From: a virus
Length of the DNA: 22,775 bases
Reading direction: 5' to 3' (one strand)
Virus record (IMG/VR): IMGVR_UViG_3300036985_001830
Location: 1-22,775 of that record
Shown here: positions 1-21,539 of the stretch, piece after piece
Position numbering within the stretch: the stretch's first letter is position 1
Layout of the letters: each line of letters starts with the position of its first letter
Position numbers and translations under genes: made by a program
The notes under the pieces: model-generated
Seen by the model: the letters and a program-made list of their open reading frames with translations, nothing else
Told to the model about the DNA's origin: nothing
Databases searched by the model: none

Positions 1-1
1 A

Positions 2-493
2 GCAAAGCCTGTGGCGCAAGCGGCGCGAAAAAAGGAAAAGTATGTAGCTGTCAACGAAACCCAAGTCATGGTCGATGTGGTCAAACACCTCACCGAGTTC
101 TTTAGGCTTCAGGAGCAGTTGGCGGCCCACATAAGGGAAGAGGAAGAAAAATCCAAGACCGTCTACGATCCCAACCAAAACCACATGGAAGCCGCGCTGA
201 AGCGGGTCATGGCGTTGGATCAGATGGCTGAATTGGAAGTAACAATCAGAGAAACAATGGTGTACCAAAGCCCACCTGAGATGGGGGCGCTGTACAGCAA
301 GGTGTTCAAGATGCGCGACACCATCAAGAAGGAACAAGAAGGAGCCAGAAAAGACCAAGAGGCAAAAGAGAGGTACAAGGCATGGCGACGGCGGGAAGCA
401 AAAAGACAATTCCTGCTCAAAGAAGCGTATCTGGGGGGAACGGCGGTTCTAATCCTGTACATCTGGATGTGGTTTCTGTTCATCAAGAAATAG
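2..493 (+). CDS. Coiled-coil protein with C-terminal membrane anchor (5' partial)
   Basis: Unrecognised protein. The reading frame is open from the first in-frame codon of the window. The first possible start is a GTG at 11, but no ribosome binding site precedes it, so the true start probably lies upstream of the window. From GTG 11 it reads 160 residues. Most are charged and helical (Glu/Lys/Arg-rich, coiled-coil-like), and the last ~20 residues form one hydrophobic segment (GTAVLILYIWMWFLFIKK) ending in Lys-Lys. This suggests a tail-anchored membrane protein with a cytoplasmic coiled coil. It lies just before membrane and lysis genes, so a role in the envelope is possible, but the function is unknown. 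Confidence 0.6.
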   Translation, partial: AKPVAQAARKKEKYVAVNETQVMVDVVKHLTEFFRLQEQLAAHIREEEEKSKTVYDPNQNHMEAALKRVMALDQMAELEVTIRETMVYQSPPEMGALYSKVFKMRDTIKKEQEGARKDQEAKERYKAWRRREAKRQFLLKEAYLGGTAVLILYIWMWFLFIKK

Positions 494-15283: not shown

Positions 15284-15739
15284 AATTCGCGCATGTTTCA
15301 AAGTCTTCCATTTGAGCCGCGCAAGGTTGTTGCAACCGAAGCGCGGTTAAACCGAATCTACGAAGCCGCCAAGCTCGGCCTCAAAGGCGACGCATTGGCC
15401 CTGGCTTCCGGCATGTTGCCCACCGAGTACCGGCAACTGTGCGAGCTTGACCCAATGGCGGACATGGCCGCGCTTAAAGGCAAAGCCGACGGCGAACTGG
15501 AGATGTCGGTGTGCTTGCACAAAGCAGCCAAGGAAGGCGACGCCAAGGCGGCGCTGGCGATCCTCCAGCACTCACACGGCTGGGTGGCCAAGCAGTCCAT
15601 CAGCATAGATGTTGATCAGCGCATCTCGATCACTGGCGCGCTAAGAGAAGCCGAGTCGCGCGTCATTGACGTCATTGCCAACGAGCCCAGTCCTAAATTG
15701 AAACAAGAGGCACATGCAGAACACTATCTACAGCGCTGA
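15275..15739 (+). CDS. Terminase small subunit (likely)
   Basis: A 154-residue protein (or 148 if started at ATG 15293; no ribosome binding site decides between them). An N-terminal helical region (ARLNRIYEAAKLGLKGDALALASGM) looks like a helix-turn-helix DNA-recognition unit, followed by helices (ELEMSVCLHKAAKEGDAKAALAIL) and a short beta segment (SISIDVDQRISIT). This layout and the direct overlap with the large terminase gene are typical of small terminase subunits, which bind the packaging site. The repeats just upstream could be its target. Confidence 0.75.
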   Translation: MTYNSRMFQSLPFEPRKVVATEARLNRIYEAAKLGLKGDALALASGMLPTEYRQLCELDPMADMAALKGKADGELEMSVCLHKAAKEGDAKAALAILQHSHGWVAKQSISIDVDQRISITGALREAESRVIDVIANEPSPKLKQEAHAEHYLQR

Positions 15740-17237
15740 AGACGAACAGGAACTGATGGCTAGGCTTTGGAGTCCGGCCATCAAGGACAACCCGCTGGCG
15801 TTTGTGATGTTTGCATTCCCCTGGGGCGTCAAGGGTACGCCACTGGAGCATTTCCAAGGGCCGCGCAAATGGCAACGCGAAGTGCTGCTGGACATCGCTG
15901 AGCACATTAAGATCAACCAGAACAAGCTGGATTTTGGCGTACTGCAAGAAGCCATCTCGTCTGGCCGTGGTATTGGCAAGTCGGCGTTGGTCAGTTGGAT
16001 CACGATTTGGATGGCGGCGACCAGGATTGGCTCGACGACCATCATCTCGGCCAACTCGGAGTCCCAGCTCAGAAGTATCACATGGGCCGAGATCACAAAA
16101 TGGCTGGCCATGGCCATCAACAGCCACTGGTTTGAGGTGTCAGCCACCCGCGTGATGCCCGCCAAGTGGCTGACTGAGCTGGTCGAGCGGGACTTGAAGA
16201 AGGGCACACGCTACTGGGGCGTCGAAGGGCGGCTATGGTCGGCGGAAAACCCCGACGCGTACGCTGGTGTGCACAACTTCGACGGTGTTTTGGTCATTTT
16301 TGACGAAGCAAGCGGCATAGACGACTCAATTTGGGCGGTTACTGGCGGTTTTTTCACAGAAAATACCCCAAATCGCTTCTGGATGGCGTTTTCCAACCCT
16401 CGCCGCAACACGGGGTACTTCTACGAAGCGTTTAACAGTAAACGTGACTTCTGGAAAACCCGCGTGGTAGACGCCCGCACGGTCGAGGGCACCGACAAAG
16501 CGGTGTACCAGCGCATCATCGACGAATATGGGCCGGATTCAGCCCAAGCGCACGTCGAGGTGTACGGTATGTTTCCCAACGCGGGGGATGATCAGTTCAT
16601 CGGGGCGGATCTGGTGGACGACGCCATGAAACGGACAAAGTACCAAGACCAATCAGCACCCATCATCATCGGCGTAGACCCCGCACGGTTTGGAGCGGAC
16701 GCAACCGTCATCGCGGTGCGGCAGGGACGGGACATCGTGAAGATCATGCGGCACAGGGGCGACGACACCATGACGGTGGTGGGGCATGTAATTGAAGCGA
16801 TTGAAGAGTACAAGCCGACGTTGGTCGTGATCGACGAAGGTGGGCTGGGCGCTGGGATTGTGGACAGGCTGAAAGAGCAACGGTACAAGATCAAAGGTGT
16901 AAACTTTGGTAACAAGTCCAGTCACCCTGTGATGTATGGAAACAAGCGGGCAGAGATGTGGGGCAAGATGCGCGAGTGGCTGAAAAGCGCCGCCATTCCT
17001 AACGATCGGTTCTTAAAGACTGATTTAATTTCGCCTATGATGAAACCTGATTCACGTGGAACAATTTTCTTGGAAAGCAAGAAAGACATGAAGTCACGTG
17101 GGCTGGCGTCACCTGACGCGGCAGACGCGATTGCTGTTACATTTGCGTTTCCTGTAGCACATCGGGAGTACACTGAAGCCACACGCAAGGTATACTCGGG
17201 CCAACGTGCTGTAGCAACTGGATGGATGGGGAGTTAA
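15714..17237 (+). CDS. Terminase large subunit
   Basis: A 507-residue packaging ATPase and nuclease. Walker A is SGRGIGKS (residues 83-90), Walker B is VLVIFDEA with D197/E198, followed by a coupling-like segment (MAFSNPRR). The RNase H-like nuclease has acidic residues at D322 (GVDPARFGAD), D374 (VVIDEGG) and D468/D471 (SPDAADAI). Both domains are complete. It overlaps the small subunit gene by 26 nt. It cuts concatemeric DNA and pumps it into the prohead through the portal encoded downstream. Confidence 0.95.
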   Translation: MQNTIYSAEDEQELMARLWSPAIKDNPLAFVMFAFPWGVKGTPLEHFQGPRKWQREVLLDIAEHIKINQNKLDFGVLQEAISSGRGIGKSALVSWITIWMAATRIGSTTIISANSESQLRSITWAEITKWLAMAINSHWFEVSATRVMPAKWLTELVERDLKKGTRYWGVEGRLWSAENPDAYAGVHNFDGVLVIFDEASGIDDSIWAVTGGFFTENTPNRFWMAFSNPRRNTGYFYEAFNSKRDFWKTRVVDARTVEGTDKAVYQRIIDEYGPDSAQAHVEVYGMFPNAGDDQFIGADLVDDAMKRTKYQDQSAPIIIGVDPARFGADATVIAVRQGRDIVKIMRHRGDDTMTVVGHVIEAIEEYKPTLVVIDEGGLGAGIVDRLKEQRYKIKGVNFGNKSSHPVMYGNKRAEMWGKMREWLKSAAIPNDRFLKTDLISPMMKPDSRGTIFLESKKDMKSRGLASPDAADAIAVTFAFPVAHREYTEATRKVYSGQRAVATGWMGS

Positions 17238-17390
17238 ATGGCAACTAAACCTGGACTTTACGCTAACATTCACGCAAAGCGCGAGCGCATTAAAGAAGGC
17301 TCGGGCGAAAAAATGCGAAAGCCTGGCACTGCTGGCGCGCCCACGGCCAAGGCGTTCAAAGAGTCAGCTAAAACTGCGAAGAAAAAATAA
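17238..17390 (+). CDS. Small basic protein, DUF6321-like (50 aa)
   Basis: A 50-residue, Lys-rich ORF with GGGGAG five bases before ATG 17238. It begins MATKPGLYANIHAKRERIKE and continues with GSGEKMRKPGTAGAPTAKAF. The LYANIHAKR...GSGEKMRKPG pattern recurs between terminase and portal genes of phages, and I recall the name DUF6321 for it. It is probably a small virion or assembly protein that can bind DNA. Its stop overlaps the portal start (TAATG). Confidence 0.75.
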   Translation: MATKPGLYANIHAKRERIKEGSGEKMRKPGTAGAPTAKAFKESAKTAKKK

Positions 17391-19555
17391 TGGATTACAC
17401 AGGCATTGCCGCAGCAGGTGCTGTGGCCAACGGCGGCAAGCAAAAAAGCTCAGAGTCTAATGTCTTGGCGACTGCCCGCGCGCGTTTGAACATGGCGATT
17501 GCTGCTTTGTCTGAAAGTCGTGAAGATGAGATTGACGACCTGAAGTTCTACGCAGGTTCGCCCGACAACCACTGGCAATGGCCTGCTGACGTACTGGCCA
17601 CACGTGGCGCGGTGCAGGGGCAAACAATTAACGCCAGACCGTGTTTGACGGTCAACAAACTTCCTCAGCACGTAAGGCAGGTCACCAATGACCAAAGGCA
17701 AAACCGCCCAAGTGGCAAAGTTATTCCAGCCGACGACCACGCAGACATTGAAGTTGCAGAAATCTTCAATGGAATGGTCAGACACATTGAATACATCAGC
17801 GACGCCGATGTCGCTTACGACACGGCCTGTGAAAACCAAGTCTCCTACGGCGAAGGTTACATCCGCATCCTGACCGAGTACTGCGACGAGAACACATTTG
17901 ATCAAGACATCAAGATTGGCCGCGTACGCAACAGCTTCTCGGTCTACATGGATCCAACCATTCAAGACCCAACAGGCGCAGACGCCAAGTGGTGCTTCGT
18001 TACTGAAGACATCACCAAAGCTGACTACGAGCGGATGTACCCCGACTCTGCGCCCATCACCACCTTGCAAACACTGGGTGTGGGCGACCAGAATTTGAGC
18101 CAGTGGCTCACTGAAGACACCATCCGCGTGGCCGATTACTACTATCTGGACTACGACCGCGCGACGCTCAACTTGTACCCAGGGAACGTGACCGCTTTTG
18201 AAAACACACCCGAAGACAAACAACTGAAAGCAATTTATGGCAAACCTAAAAGAAGTCGTGAGTCGGATCGTGTCAAGATTAAATACTGCAAGATCAACGG
18301 CTATGAAATTCTTGAAGAACGCGATTGGGCGGGGAAATACATCCCAGTAGTCCGCATCGTCGGCAATGAATTTGAAGTCGATGGTCGCCTGTATGTGTCG
18401 GGCTTGGTGCGTAACGCCAAGGACGCCCAGCGCATGTACAACTACTGGGTGAGCCAAGAAGCAGAGATGCTGGCATTGGCCCCCAAAGCGCCGTTTATTG
18501 GTTACGGTGGCCAGTTTGAAGGGTACGAGAATCAGTGGAAAACGGCCAACACCAACAACTGGCCGTATCTGGAGGTCAATCCAGACGTCACAGACGGCTC
18601 TGGCAATATGTTGCCGCTGCCAGCCCGTGCACAGCCTCCAATGGCCTCCAGCGGGCTGTTGCAAGCCAAAGCTGGCGCGTCTGAGGACATCAAGTCGTCT
18701 ACTGGCCAATACAACGCATCTTTGGGCATGGGCTCAAACGAACGCTCAGGAAAAGCAATTCTTGCGCGTCAACGTGAAGGCGACGTAGGTACATACCACT
18801 ATGGCGACAATTTGGCCCGTGGTGTGCGTCACATTGTGCGTCAGTTGGTGGACTTGATCCCCAAGATTTACGACACACAGCGTGTGGCCCGCATCATTGG
18901 CTTGGACGGCGAAACTAAGATGGTCAAAATTGACCCAGCTCAGGAAGAGCCGGTCAAGAAAATCATGCAAGACGACATCGTGATCGACAAGATTTACAAC
19001 CCCAACGTCGGCAAGTACGACGTGGTGGTGGCCACCGGCCCAGGGTACGCGACCAAGCGTCAAGAAGCCTTGGAAGCCATGGCCCAGTTGCTGCAAGGCA
19101 ACCCAAGCTTGTGGGCTGTGGCTGGCGACTTGTTTGTCAAGAACATGGACTGGCCAGGTGCTCAAGAGATGGCCAAGCGGTTTGCCAAGACCATCGACCC
19201 CAAACTCATGGAAGACGGTGACAAGCAGCCCGAGTTGCAAGCTGCCGAGCAACAAATGCAGGCTATGGGTCAAGAGTTGGATCAACTGCATGAAATGCTT
19301 AAAAACGTCGGCAAGTCGATTGAAGCGCAAGATATGCAACGCAAAGATTTTGAAGCTGAAGTCAAGATGTATGAGGCCGAAACCAAGCGAATTGCTGCGG
19401 TGCAAGCAGGCATGACTGAGCAACAAATTCAAGATATTGCTATGGGCGTAGTCGCTGCGGCAATGGAATCGCAAAGCATGATGAACCAGATGCCTGAAAT
19501 GCGCGAAGAACCAATGCAAGAAGAAATGATGCCACCACAAGGAATGCCCCAATGA
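17390..19555 (+). CDS. Portal protein, P22 type
   Basis: A 721-residue protein with the features of P22-like portals: an N-terminal helical and alpha/beta section (SREDEIDDLKFYAGS, NARPCLTVNKLPQHVRQVTN, DQRQNRP), a central segment with SGKAILARQREGD, and a long C-terminal Gln/Glu/Met-rich helical tail (from ~590), the likely barrel region. It forms the dodecameric DNA channel at one capsid vertex, binds the terminase during packaging and later the tail. Start coupled to the upstream gene; no ribosome binding site of its own is obvious. P22-type portals suggest a podovirus-like particle. Confidence 0.9.
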   Translation: MDYTGIAAAGAVANGGKQKSSESNVLATARARLNMAIAALSESREDEIDDLKFYAGSPDNHWQWPADVLATRGAVQGQTINARPCLTVNKLPQHVRQVTNDQRQNRPSGKVIPADDHADIEVAEIFNGMVRHIEYISDADVAYDTACENQVSYGEGYIRILTEYCDENTFDQDIKIGRVRNSFSVYMDPTIQDPTGADAKWCFVTEDITKADYERMYPDSAPITTLQTLGVGDQNLSQWLTEDTIRVADYYYLDYDRATLNLYPGNVTAFENTPEDKQLKAIYGKPKRSRESDRVKIKYCKINGYEILEERDWAGKYIPVVRIVGNEFEVDGRLYVSGLVRNAKDAQRMYNYWVSQEAEMLALAPKAPFIGYGGQFEGYENQWKTANTNNWPYLEVNPDVTDGSGNMLPLPARAQPPMASSGLLQAKAGASEDIKSSTGQYNASLGMGSNERSGKAILARQREGDVGTYHYGDNLARGVRHIVRQLVDLIPKIYDTQRVARIIGLDGETKMVKIDPAQEEPVKKIMQDDIVIDKIYNPNVGKYDVVVATGPGYATKRQEALEAMAQLLQGNPSLWAVAGDLFVKNMDWPGAQEMAKRFAKTIDPKLMEDGDKQPELQAAEQQMQAMGQELDQLHEMLKNVGKSIEAQDMQRKDFEAEVKMYEAETKRIAAVQAGMTEQQIQDIAMGVVAAAMESQSMMNQMPEMREEPMQEEMMPPQGMPQ

Positions 19556-19914
19556 AAGCTGCTGATTTTTTAGGCTTGTTGTTTTTGGCAAGAGATGTAG
19601 CGCACAGTGTGCATTTGAACACCCGTAGCTTTAGCAAACACAAAGCGCTCAATATTTTCTACGACCGCATTGTTGGCGCGGCTGACGATTTTGCCGAAAC
19701 CTACCAAGGCCGTCATGGATTAATTGGCCCCATTACGCTACATTCCGCTAAAAAGACGTCCAACATCATTGAATTCTTGGAAGACTCACTTAAGCAGATT
19801 GAAGAAGGCAGATACGAAATTTGCGACAAAACTGATACTGCGCTGCAACAACTTATCGACAACATTGTTGAGATTTATTTGCGTACGCTCTACAAACTCA
19901 AATACTTAGCATGA
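19552..19914 (+). CDS. Dps/ferritin-like protein, DUF5856-type
   Basis: A 120-residue all-helical protein. Without gaps, residues H18, H30, D45 and E49 match the spacing of E. coli Dps ferroxidase residues H51, H63, D78 and E82; Leu33, Phe36 and Ala48 also match, while N34 stands at the D67 position. A C-terminal helix (DTALQQLIDNIVEIYLRTLY) resembles the last Dps helix. Phage proteins of this kind may carry the name DUF5856 (from memory). A four-helix bundle and iron or DNA binding are therefore inferred, not proven. It lies between portal and fibre-like genes and overlaps both by ATGA. Confidence 0.7.
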   Translation: MKAADFLGLLFLARDVAHSVHLNTRSFSKHKALNIFYDRIVGAADDFAETYQGRHGLIGPITLHSAKKTSNIIEFLEDSLKQIEEGRYEICDKTDTALQQLIDNIVEIYLRTLYKLKYLA

Positions 19915-21539
19915 CAGTCTCAGTCACACACTCTACGCCTGCGGACGGCTCGTTTAGCGCGGCTGGCGCAACGGCTTGGGATGCTACGCACACGCTAACT
20001 GGTGTGGGTACGATGGCTGAGCAAGACGCCAACAATGTGGCTATCACTGGCGGCTCTATCACCGGCGTTACTGGCTTGGGAACAGTCACAAGTGTTGCGG
20101 CAACTGCTGGAACTGGTATCAGTGTTACAGGTAGCCCAATTACAACTAGTGGAACATTAGTTATTACTAACACTGCACCAGATCAGACTGTTGCGTTGAC
20201 CCAAGGCGGTACAACAACAATTACTGGCACTTACCCTAACTTCACCATTTCCTCTGCTGATCAGTTTCAAGGAACAGTTACTTCTGTAGGTGGCACAGGC
20301 ACGGTCAGCGGATTAACCTTGTCAGGTACGGTTACAGGTTCGGGAAACTTAACCCTTGGCGGCGCAATCACTGGATTTGCAACAAGTGGGGCAAATACAG
20401 ACATTACCTCTGTGGCGCTGACTACAGGCACAATATCCACGATTCCAACCAACAACACAGACATTGTTAACAAGCAGTACGCTGACGCAATTGCATCTGG
20501 CATTCACTTTCATGAAGCAGTGGCATTGGCAACTACTGCGGCTCTGCCAGCCAACACCTACAACAATGGAACATCTGGCGTAGGGGCAACACTTACGGCA
20601 ACCGCCAATGGCGCTTTGTCTGTGGACTCAACACTGACTGTTGTTGCAGAGCGAATACTGGTAAAAAATGAAGCTACTGGCGCAAATAACGGCGTGTACG
20701 TTGTCACACAAGTTGGTAGTGCTGGAACACCGTACATTCTGACCCGAGCAACTGATTTCAATACTGTTGGCACTGGAGTTAACCAGATTGATGAGGGAGA
20801 CTTCTTTCTTGTCACTAGCGGAACGGCTAACGTAAACACAGCTTGGGTGCAACAGACCCCTCCACCAATAACGATTGGCACAACAGCACTTGTTTTTCAG
20901 CAGTTTGCCGCACCAATTACCTATACAGCGGGTACAGGGTTAAATGAATCGCCAAGCTTCACATTTAATATTGCTAACACAGGAACGGCTGGCACATATG
21001 GCTCGGCATCGCAAATACCAGTCTTTACAACAAACGCTCAAGGACAAGTTACCTCAGTAACAAACACCCCTATTGCTGTTTTTACCCCAACTATTGATAG
21101 GCTAACGTCAACACAACAATCAACCACCACTGCTTTAGCTGATGTCACGCAATTGGTTGAGGCTTTGGTAGCAAACGCCACATACAGCATTAATTGCTTT
21201 GTAACATTCCAAAGTGCGGCGACTACCACTGGTTTAAACCTTGGATTTACCTCTCCAACAGGGTGTGTTTGCTCGGTTGAAGTGGTTGTTCCAGTCACCA
21301 CTACGGCGGCGGCTTCTCAGTTAAGAAAAATTTTCCCGAATGCAGCGGACATTAATACAGGTAACGTATTGGGAACTGGTGTGACTGCCATCAACACCAA
21401 TCAAACAGCAAGGATTTCAGGAATCATTACCAATGGCGCAAATGCTGGTAATTTCCAAGTCAGGTTTGCTACCGAGGTTGCTGCGTCTGCGGTAACCTTG
21501 CAAACCTCAAGTGTGATGGTTTTGGAGCGATTGGTTTAG
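19911..21539 (+). CDS. Repeat-rich fibre-like structural protein
   Basis: A 542-residue protein very rich in Thr, Gly, Ser, Ala and Val, with almost no charged residues in the first third. The N-terminal part carries repeats of the type GTVTSV...GTG (near 57-70 and 125-150), including GTVSGLTLSGTVTGSGNLTL, a motif common in phage tail proteins. NTDIVNKQYADAIASGIHFH (~180-200) resembles fibre domains that precede a trimeric stalk, followed by a domain with VAERILVKNEATGANNGVYV. A beta-helical host-recognition or head fibre is likely. Its DNA is visibly more AT-rich than the neighbouring genes, a hint of separate origin. Confidence 0.75.
   Translation: MTVSVTHSTPADGSFSAAGATAWDATHTLTGVGTMAEQDANNVAITGGSITGVTGLGTVTSVAATAGTGISVTGSPITTSGTLVITNTAPDQTVALTQGGTTTITGTYPNFTISSADQFQGTVTSVGGTGTVSGLTLSGTVTGSGNLTLGGAITGFATSGANTDITSVALTTGTISTIPTNNTDIVNKQYADAIASGIHFHEAVALATTAALPANTYNNGTSGVGATLTATANGALSVDSTLTVVAERILVKNEATGANNGVYVVTQVGSAGTPYILTRATDFNTVGTGVNQIDEGDFFLVTSGTANVNTAWVQQTPPPITIGTTALVFQQFAAPITYTAGTGLNESPSFTFNIANTGTAGTYGSASQIPVFTTNAQGQVTSVTNTPIAVFTPTIDRLTSTQQSTTTALADVTQLVEALVANATYSINCFVTFQSAATTTGLNLGFTSPTGCVCSVEVVVPVTTTAAASQLRKIFPNAADINTGNVLGTGVTAINTNQTARISGIITNGANAGNFQVRFATEVAASAVTLQTSSVMVLERLV

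Follow-up and report, generated by a model that had tools for sequence, protein, structure and literature searches.

Why would a podovirus-like phage encode a ferritin-like protein directly behind its portal gene? The question is raised by the virus record IMGVR_UViG_3300036985_001830, whose 22,775 bases were analysed as a whole (hereafter the window, which may be a fragment), and in which a preliminary description made from the letters alone had pointed to an open reading frame (ORF) with four residues reminiscent of the ferroxidase centre of Dps. This ORF opens with an ATG and is referred to here as the mini-Dps gene:

19552..19914, + strand: mini-Dps (DUF5856) gene, product P0001, 120 aa; Pfam 1.1e-18, PHROG 858 1.6e-23; predicted helices 3-23, 27-55, 72-90 and 96-119

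Judged by profile comparisons and a predicted model, its product is Dps-like and represents a separate short branch, not Dps proper. Our preferred reading, towards which the evidence leans modestly, is that of a metal-binding, probably iron-oxidising mini-Dps that is made together with the phage head and is probably present in the particles. This reading builds on the family to which the protein belongs, its predicted fold, its conserved ligands, the coupling of its gene to that of the portal and the detection of relatives in the virions of other phages, while the formation of a dimer site, its chemistry, the virion location in the window's own clade and the benefit to the phage are steps that we infer.

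As the preliminary description had guessed, the protein matches DUF5856 (PF19174), with an expectation value (E) of 1.1e-18 and 68.4 bits against a gathering score of 34.6, and with residues 21-116 aligned to positions 1-94 of the 94-position profile. Together with its match to PHROG 858 (E 1.6e-23) this makes it a full member of a family in which all 74 members of a deep alignment match DUF5856 (E up to 1). Relatives were found by tblastn in 1,329 of 50,697 phage records (approximately 1 in 38), with at least 80% query coverage in 1,314 of them, and include a protein of T4 (MobD.6 in the T4 record, rI.-1 in one paper's listing) as well as proteins of Klebsiella KP27, Kuttervirus moki, Caulobacter GB2A and a 635-kb phage.

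PHROG 858 carries the label 'starvation-inducible transcriptional regulator', which has been widely copied onto the family in PHROG and GenBank, and which is probably a garbled version of the Dps name. This label, and 'DNA binding protein' in DSL-LC05, are all that speaks for a DNA-binding or transcription-regulating protein. We regard such a role as very improbable, given that the window protein lacks an N-terminal tail rich in lysine and is balanced in charge (15 K+R vs. 16 D+E; isoelectric point of approximately 6.5). For the same reasons the DNA compaction that had been proposed as one possible role finds no support, and a misleading database label can be corrected.

The relationship to Dps emerged from profiles of the family. 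When the single window protein was searched against the PDB with phmmer, no Dps was among the matches (best E 2), and Pfam Ferritin (PF00210) was not matched up to E 10, with only 7 of the 74 family members matching it weakly (best 0.0033). A profile built from 10 distant members, in turn, retrieved NapA from the PDB at E 7.4e-4, and the 74-member profile placed Dps proteins at the top, with NapA (1ji4) at E 3.9e-5. Among its best nine PDB matches, eight are named as Dps-family, stress-response or neutrophil-activating proteins, and the ninth (CAIP) has the same motif. Moreover, aligning the family with 31 Dps sequences (i.e., E. coli Dps, read from NC_000913, and 30 from genomes) via hhalign gave a probability of 92.2 and a score of 46.3 over 117 columns, vs. 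14.0 for the reversed alignment and 18.5 for the best of 200 column shuffles. With the four putative ligands masked, the score (27.6) still exceeded every one of these 200 shuffles. A rotation control of the 74-member alignment was unclean, in that rotated profiles retain long intact stretches (best tried: probability 76.6), and the homology claim leans on the reversed and shuffled controls.

The preliminary description had also anticipated a ferritin-like four-helix fold, and AlphaFold2 (run with the 74-member alignment) indeed predicted a four-helix bundle with a predicted local distance difference test (pLDDT) of 95 and a predicted template modelling score of 0.89. The leading PDB rows returned for this model by Foldseek were almost all Dps (best E 0.02, probability 1.0), and the best match in VIA was MsDps2, with a Z of 13.9 and a root-mean-square deviation of 2.4 over 118 residues, E. 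coli Dps scoring a Z of 12.7. The T4 member rI.-1, modelled separately from a 59-member alignment (pLDDT 90.9), showed the same fold and found the same Dps as its best match, again with a Z of 13.9. Bacterioferritins scored slightly lower in VIA (Z of at most 11.9 for the window model and up to 12.2 for the T4 model), although these rows differ little. Within the family, invariance is confined to the residues of the Dps-type site, which lie on helices A and B. In classical ferritin or bacterioferritin the diiron site lies within one subunit, with a second carboxylate/ExxH set on helix D.

Which residues of the window protein correspond to the Dps ligands was subsequently resolved with homologues. 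The residues concerned are:

19612..19614, + strand: H21, predicted first ligand as corrected here, equivalent to Dps H51 and HP-NAP H25 (conservation, profile and structural alignments)
19639..19641, + strand: H30, equivalent to Dps H63 and HP-NAP H37 (conservation, profile alignments)
19684..19686, + strand: D45, equivalent to Dps D78 and HP-NAP D52 (conservation, profile alignments)
19696..19698, + strand: E49, equivalent to Dps E82 and HP-NAP E56 (conservation, profile alignments)
19603..19605, + strand: H18, equivalent to HP-NAP His22 and initially the candidate for Dps H51 (conservation, profile alignment)
19660..19662, + strand: Y37, corresponding to HP-NAP Tyr44, a neighbour of the ferroxidase centre (63 of 65 representatives)

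The preliminary description had aligned H18, H30, D45 and E49 with E. coli Dps H51, H63, D78 and E82 in a gapless manner. These residues do stand at the places named, and their spacing (H18-12-H30-15-D45-4-E49) is exactly that of E. coli Dps (H51-12-H63-15-D78-4-E82). Such a pattern arises in 48 of 100,000 shuffles of the window protein, and the alternative pattern starting from H21 (H-9-H-15-D-4-E) in 67 of 100,000. Since both patterns occur in one protein, a single sequence cannot fix the register, but homologues can. In 65 representatives (at 80% identity, drawn from 326 loci with 222 distinct sequences, one short sequence being excluded), H21, H30, D45 and E49 are invariant, while H18 is a His in 58 (otherwise R, Q or Y); A32 is kept in 63. 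Furthermore, deep-profile alignments open a 3-residue gap that pairs H21 with Dps H51 and HP-NAP H25, making the A-B turn 3 residues shorter. In the structural alignment of the model (1..120 on Dps 31..166) H21 falls at residue 51, as does its T4 counterpart H33 by the structural ranges 13..128 vs. 31..165. The number of residues between H21 and H30 is 8 in 62 of the 74 members (i.e., those with the turn 3 residues shorter than in Dps), 12 in one, and 11 in the remaining 11 members, the latter being the spacing between H51 and H63 in 31/31 Dps. Against this register, a shallow 10-member profile had aligned H18 to NapA without a gap. The gapless register was rejected on the variability of H18, the invariance of H21, the 3 residues inserted by the deep profiles and the 11 members with full Dps spacing. 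The proposed pairs of H30, D45 and E49, and their conservation in homologues, thus stand, whereas the H18 pair was off by one helical turn.

In HP-NAP, as set out in the available text of the source, His25, Asp52 and Glu56 hold the first metal and His37 and Glu56 the second, with His25 and His37 coming from one subunit and Asp52 and Glu56 from the other (PMC4192664). Two second-shell residues are described with this site (PMC4192664): His22, which forms a salt bridge to Asp52 when metal is absent (apo form), is matched in the window protein by H18, and Tyr44 by Y37. By analogy, H21 and H30 would come from one subunit and D45 and E49 from its two-fold partner. Dps-style pairing of two subunits would then give rise to two metal sites, at which Fe(II) (or Zn/Mn) would be bound and oxidised.

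The acidic residue at Dps D67 is not found in the window protein, where Asn34 was correctly seen to take its place. This position varies both in the family (G 28, Q 27, N 12, A 3 and D 2 among 74 members) and in Dps (D 15, E 13, M 2 and Q 1, so that D/E make up 28 of 31). Since the D67 place is not named as a direct metal ligand in the portion of the HP-NAP paper at hand (PMC4192664), the site could still function with Asn34. Metal binding there is likewise described, in the available part of their report, for cyanobacterial Dps whose ligands differ (PMC7327923). An Arg at the place of Dps R133 (R87 in the window protein) is present in 65/74 members and 29/31 Dps. Salt bridges of the R133 type, known from the accessible account of modelled Dps trimer contacts (Asp20-Arg133 and Asp143-Arg153; PMC11766142), were considered as a sign of Dps-like assembly and dropped, the conserved R87 fitting loosely.

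The window protein thus shares with the Dps family (E. coli Dps, H. pylori NapA, MsDps2) a predicted four-helix bundle and the equivalents of the inter-subunit centre H51, H63, D78 and E82, but at 120 aa it is shorter than Dps (approximately 145-167 aa). The stretch from E49 to R87 spans 31-46 residues in the family vs. 49-52 in Dps, and the BC helix of Dps is missing from the model, in which no helix is predicted between residues 55 and 72. Because of this missing helix, the shorter E49-R87 stretch, the lack of a basic DNA-binding tail and the lack of a Pfam Ferritin match, the protein is called Dps-like and not Dps.

These departures invite the reading of a dead ferritin fold that now serves a structural or assembly purpose close to the portal, an option already raised in the preliminary description. 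The loss of D67, the lack of a BC helix and the fixed position of the gene after the portal gene would all fit, but a scaffold would need neither the invariant H21, H30, D45 and E49 (65/65) nor the well-kept H18 (58/65) and Y37 (63/65). We therefore disfavour this option and consider it improbable.

The genomic position of the gene bears further on its role. The window carries a late gene block in the order terminase large subunit, portal, mini-Dps and a 542-aa gene:

15714..17237, + strand: terminase large subunit, in the same late gene block as mini-Dps
17390..19555, + strand: portal protein gene (PHROG 156 portal, 4.7e-128), sharing a 4-base stop/start overlap with mini-Dps (ATGA, 19552-19555)
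19911..21539, + strand: 542-aa gene following mini-Dps, tail-fibre or head-decoration-like, whose start overlaps the mini-Dps stop by 4 bases

The overlap of 4 bases between portal stop and mini-Dps start recurred in 77 of 87 loci retrieved with the mini-Dps gene as seed. The remaining loci showed an overlap of 14 (3 loci) or 1 (2 loci), a gap of approximately 465 bases (3 loci) or no portal on the contig (2 loci). The gaps, in L042, L043 and L079, were measured from the portal end as aligned and may reflect either a gene inserted there or a portal whose end has diverged. Starting from the portal instead, 80 loci of the window's podovirus group were collected (some sharing contigs with the gene-seeded loci), and mini-Dps came next in all 75 with room for it, the other 5 ending too soon. 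Here the ATGA overlap was present in 72 of 74 measurable loci, and the pattern H..H........H.A............D...E was kept in all 68 complete copies. Among close relatives the median ratio of nonsynonymous to synonymous substitution rates (dN/dS) was approximately 0.04, with 152 of 300 sampled pairs usable and dS near saturation. By this codon-level measure, the mini-Dps gene is under purifying selection. The overlapping stop and start codons would allow the protein to be co-produced with the portal, within the head gene block. The window's clade departs in this genome position from the family at large, being tied to the portal by the ATGA overlap.

In other clades the gene stands in other company. 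Its neighbours there include rI, holin, endolysin, HNH, ParB-like, tail fibre and queuine transferase genes, with 20 of 52 listed neighbour proteins scanned after selection by hand. Since the neighbours vary between clades, we rejected the idea that the family as a whole serves the head specifically. Some of these neighbours raise the thought of an accessory lysis-timing factor: in T4 and KP27 the gene comes right after rI, other members precede the holin in P19250A and the endolysin in GB2A, and over-expression of T4 rI.-1 slightly delays lysis-inhibition collapse (Golec 2010, as relayed in the accessible part of the review PMC6832632). Nevertheless, this T4 effect is slight and stems from over-expression, RaK2 is reported to carry the gene without holin T and RI, and in the window the lysis genes (spanin and endolysin, 1127-2001) lie approximately 18 kb from mini-Dps, which follows the portal. 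A lysis-timing function thus seems hardly likely.

Family members have been detected by mass spectrometry in purified virions of four phages, belonging to the Ackermannviridae and Straboviridae. In the available text on LIMEstone1, ORF078 yielded 3 peptides with 28.21% coverage and was termed a 'confirmed structural protein' (PMC3296691). VMC03/04 gp108/gp100 gave 26/27 spectra in purified virions. According to the accessible passages on Sajous1, gp217 gave 10 spectra in CsCl-purified virions and was called 'Ferritin' by Phyre2 at 96.7 confidence (PMC10892097). Family membership was confirmed by profile for LIMEstone1, VMC03 and Sajous1 (E 1.7e-29 for the latter), while no virion detection of RaK2 gp015 was found in the literature passages seen on RaK2. 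By extension from these relatives' purified virions, we favour iron or metal binding, in the virion or close to it, among the roles initially put forward. The earlier interpretation as a whole is supported by the predicted four-helix fold with Dps as its best match, and by ligand residues that do not vary even in highly divergent homologues, provided H21 takes the place of H18. Carried in or on the virion, the protein would remove or store iron, and in this way would protect the phage DNA, or the newly infected cell, from iron-driven radical damage.

An active mini-Dps could also work in the infected cell and not in the particle, and would then reduce free iron and damage from peroxide while the phage multiplies. 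The true Dps and manganese catalase of gut phages are interpreted as intracellular protection in the part of PMC8008677 at hand, host dps is listed among the most induced genes during YerA41 infection in the accessible part of PMC7354516, and in many clades the gene resides in non-structural neighbourhoods. The detection of members in Ackermannviridae and Straboviridae virions and the strict portal-gene coupling in the window's clade argue the other way, and we hold an intracellular site of action to be a serious candidate with a minor share of the probability.

Several observations weigh against a virion-borne, iron-oxidising mini-Dps. Foldseek E-values are weak and helical bundles reach a Z of approximately 13 easily, so that the fold match alone is not decisive. 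The model lacks the BC helix that Dps has at its two-fold, which makes Dps-like pairing an assumption; the D67 ligand is absent; and the place of Trp52 is taken by L in the window protein, with W in 21/65 representatives. In other clades the gene has unrelated neighbours, so that a role in the head need not hold throughout the family, and the virion data come from distant relatives (approximately 30% identity), include contaminant-level proteins and cover none of the window's podovirus clade. Host tonB/feoB mutants are described as having no effect on Vi01-like phages in the available text of PMC10892097. Finally, T4 stocks with a frameshifted rI.-1 still grow.

With regard to this T4 gene (L082:2962-3348), one paper notes that two laboratory T4 stocks are frameshifted relative to a 1972 stock, and these stocks offer a natural comparison for an rI.-1 phenotype. 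If the protein is active, whether phage particles carry their own iron-oxidising protection becomes testable in T4.

A broader and decidedly tentative proposal is that a virion-borne mini-Dps is common to tailed phages, from T4 to environmental podoviruses, as a particle module against iron and reactive oxygen species. In the P22-like clade its synthesis would be matched to that of the portal, and the protein might be located at the portal vertex and guard the DNA as it is packaged or ejected. Twelve-fold symmetry is common to portal and Dps.

Parts of this picture are already known, i.e., the Dps kind itself, true Dps in phages, and one family member (Sajous1 gp217) called ferritin in print. 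Gut and Lactobacillus phages (Gratiaviridae, Flandersviridae) have true Dps, which are likewise phage-borne Dps-type proteins but are named Dps or DNA-binding ferritin-like outright in papers. Sajous1 gp217, from the Vi01-like phages, belongs to the same family as the window protein, and its authors link it to the tail and to a 'ferrojan horse' entry idea, which they examined with tonB/feoB mutants that had no effect; the passages at hand state no family, ligand or T4 link (PMC10892097). In open-licence PMC papers, nothing relevant was found under DUF5856, phrog_858, VOG0375, PF19174 or phrases for a phage Dps, and nothing pertinent on a ferritin-like Dps four-helix protein in bacteriophage virions. 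Nor did this literature yield an assignment of the whole family to the Dps kind, its set of invariant ligands, a Dps interpretation of T4 rI.-1 or the link with the portal gene. A phage family known by a DUF label that includes an unexplained T4 gene thereby gains a predicted fold and four candidate metal ligands, the surprise being limited by the earlier Phyre2 ferritin call for one member.

Bacterial copies of the family are rare. In 398 Pseudomonadota genomes the profile matched 5 places, corresponding to 2 family members and 3 true Dps. A small 0.9-Mb bacterial genome (L365) carries a divergent relative with an HW motif (NHWKSKKYAEH; E 7.7e-8), and the isolate Rhizorhabdus histidinilytica UM2 (L332) carries a portal and mini-Dps copy within a 768-kb contig, which suggests a prophage of the window's clade.

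Matches of the model in BFVD extended to A0A6J7WIS1, A0A6J7WPK9, A0A8S5MNG7 and A0A6J5N5R9, in which ferritin-like domains seemingly form part of longer phage proteins. Two of these are annotated as prohead protease (432 and 763 aa), one as NUDIX hydrolase (713 aa) and one as Ferritin/DPS (679 aa). If true, such domains in prohead protease-type proteins would again link Dps-like folds with head genes. Proteins of Pithovirus LCPAC404 and Fadolivirus (A0A481ZC29 and A0A7D3V608) also matched the model in BFVD, at template modelling scores of 0.76-0.82, and by this structural comparison giant viruses may carry the same fold.
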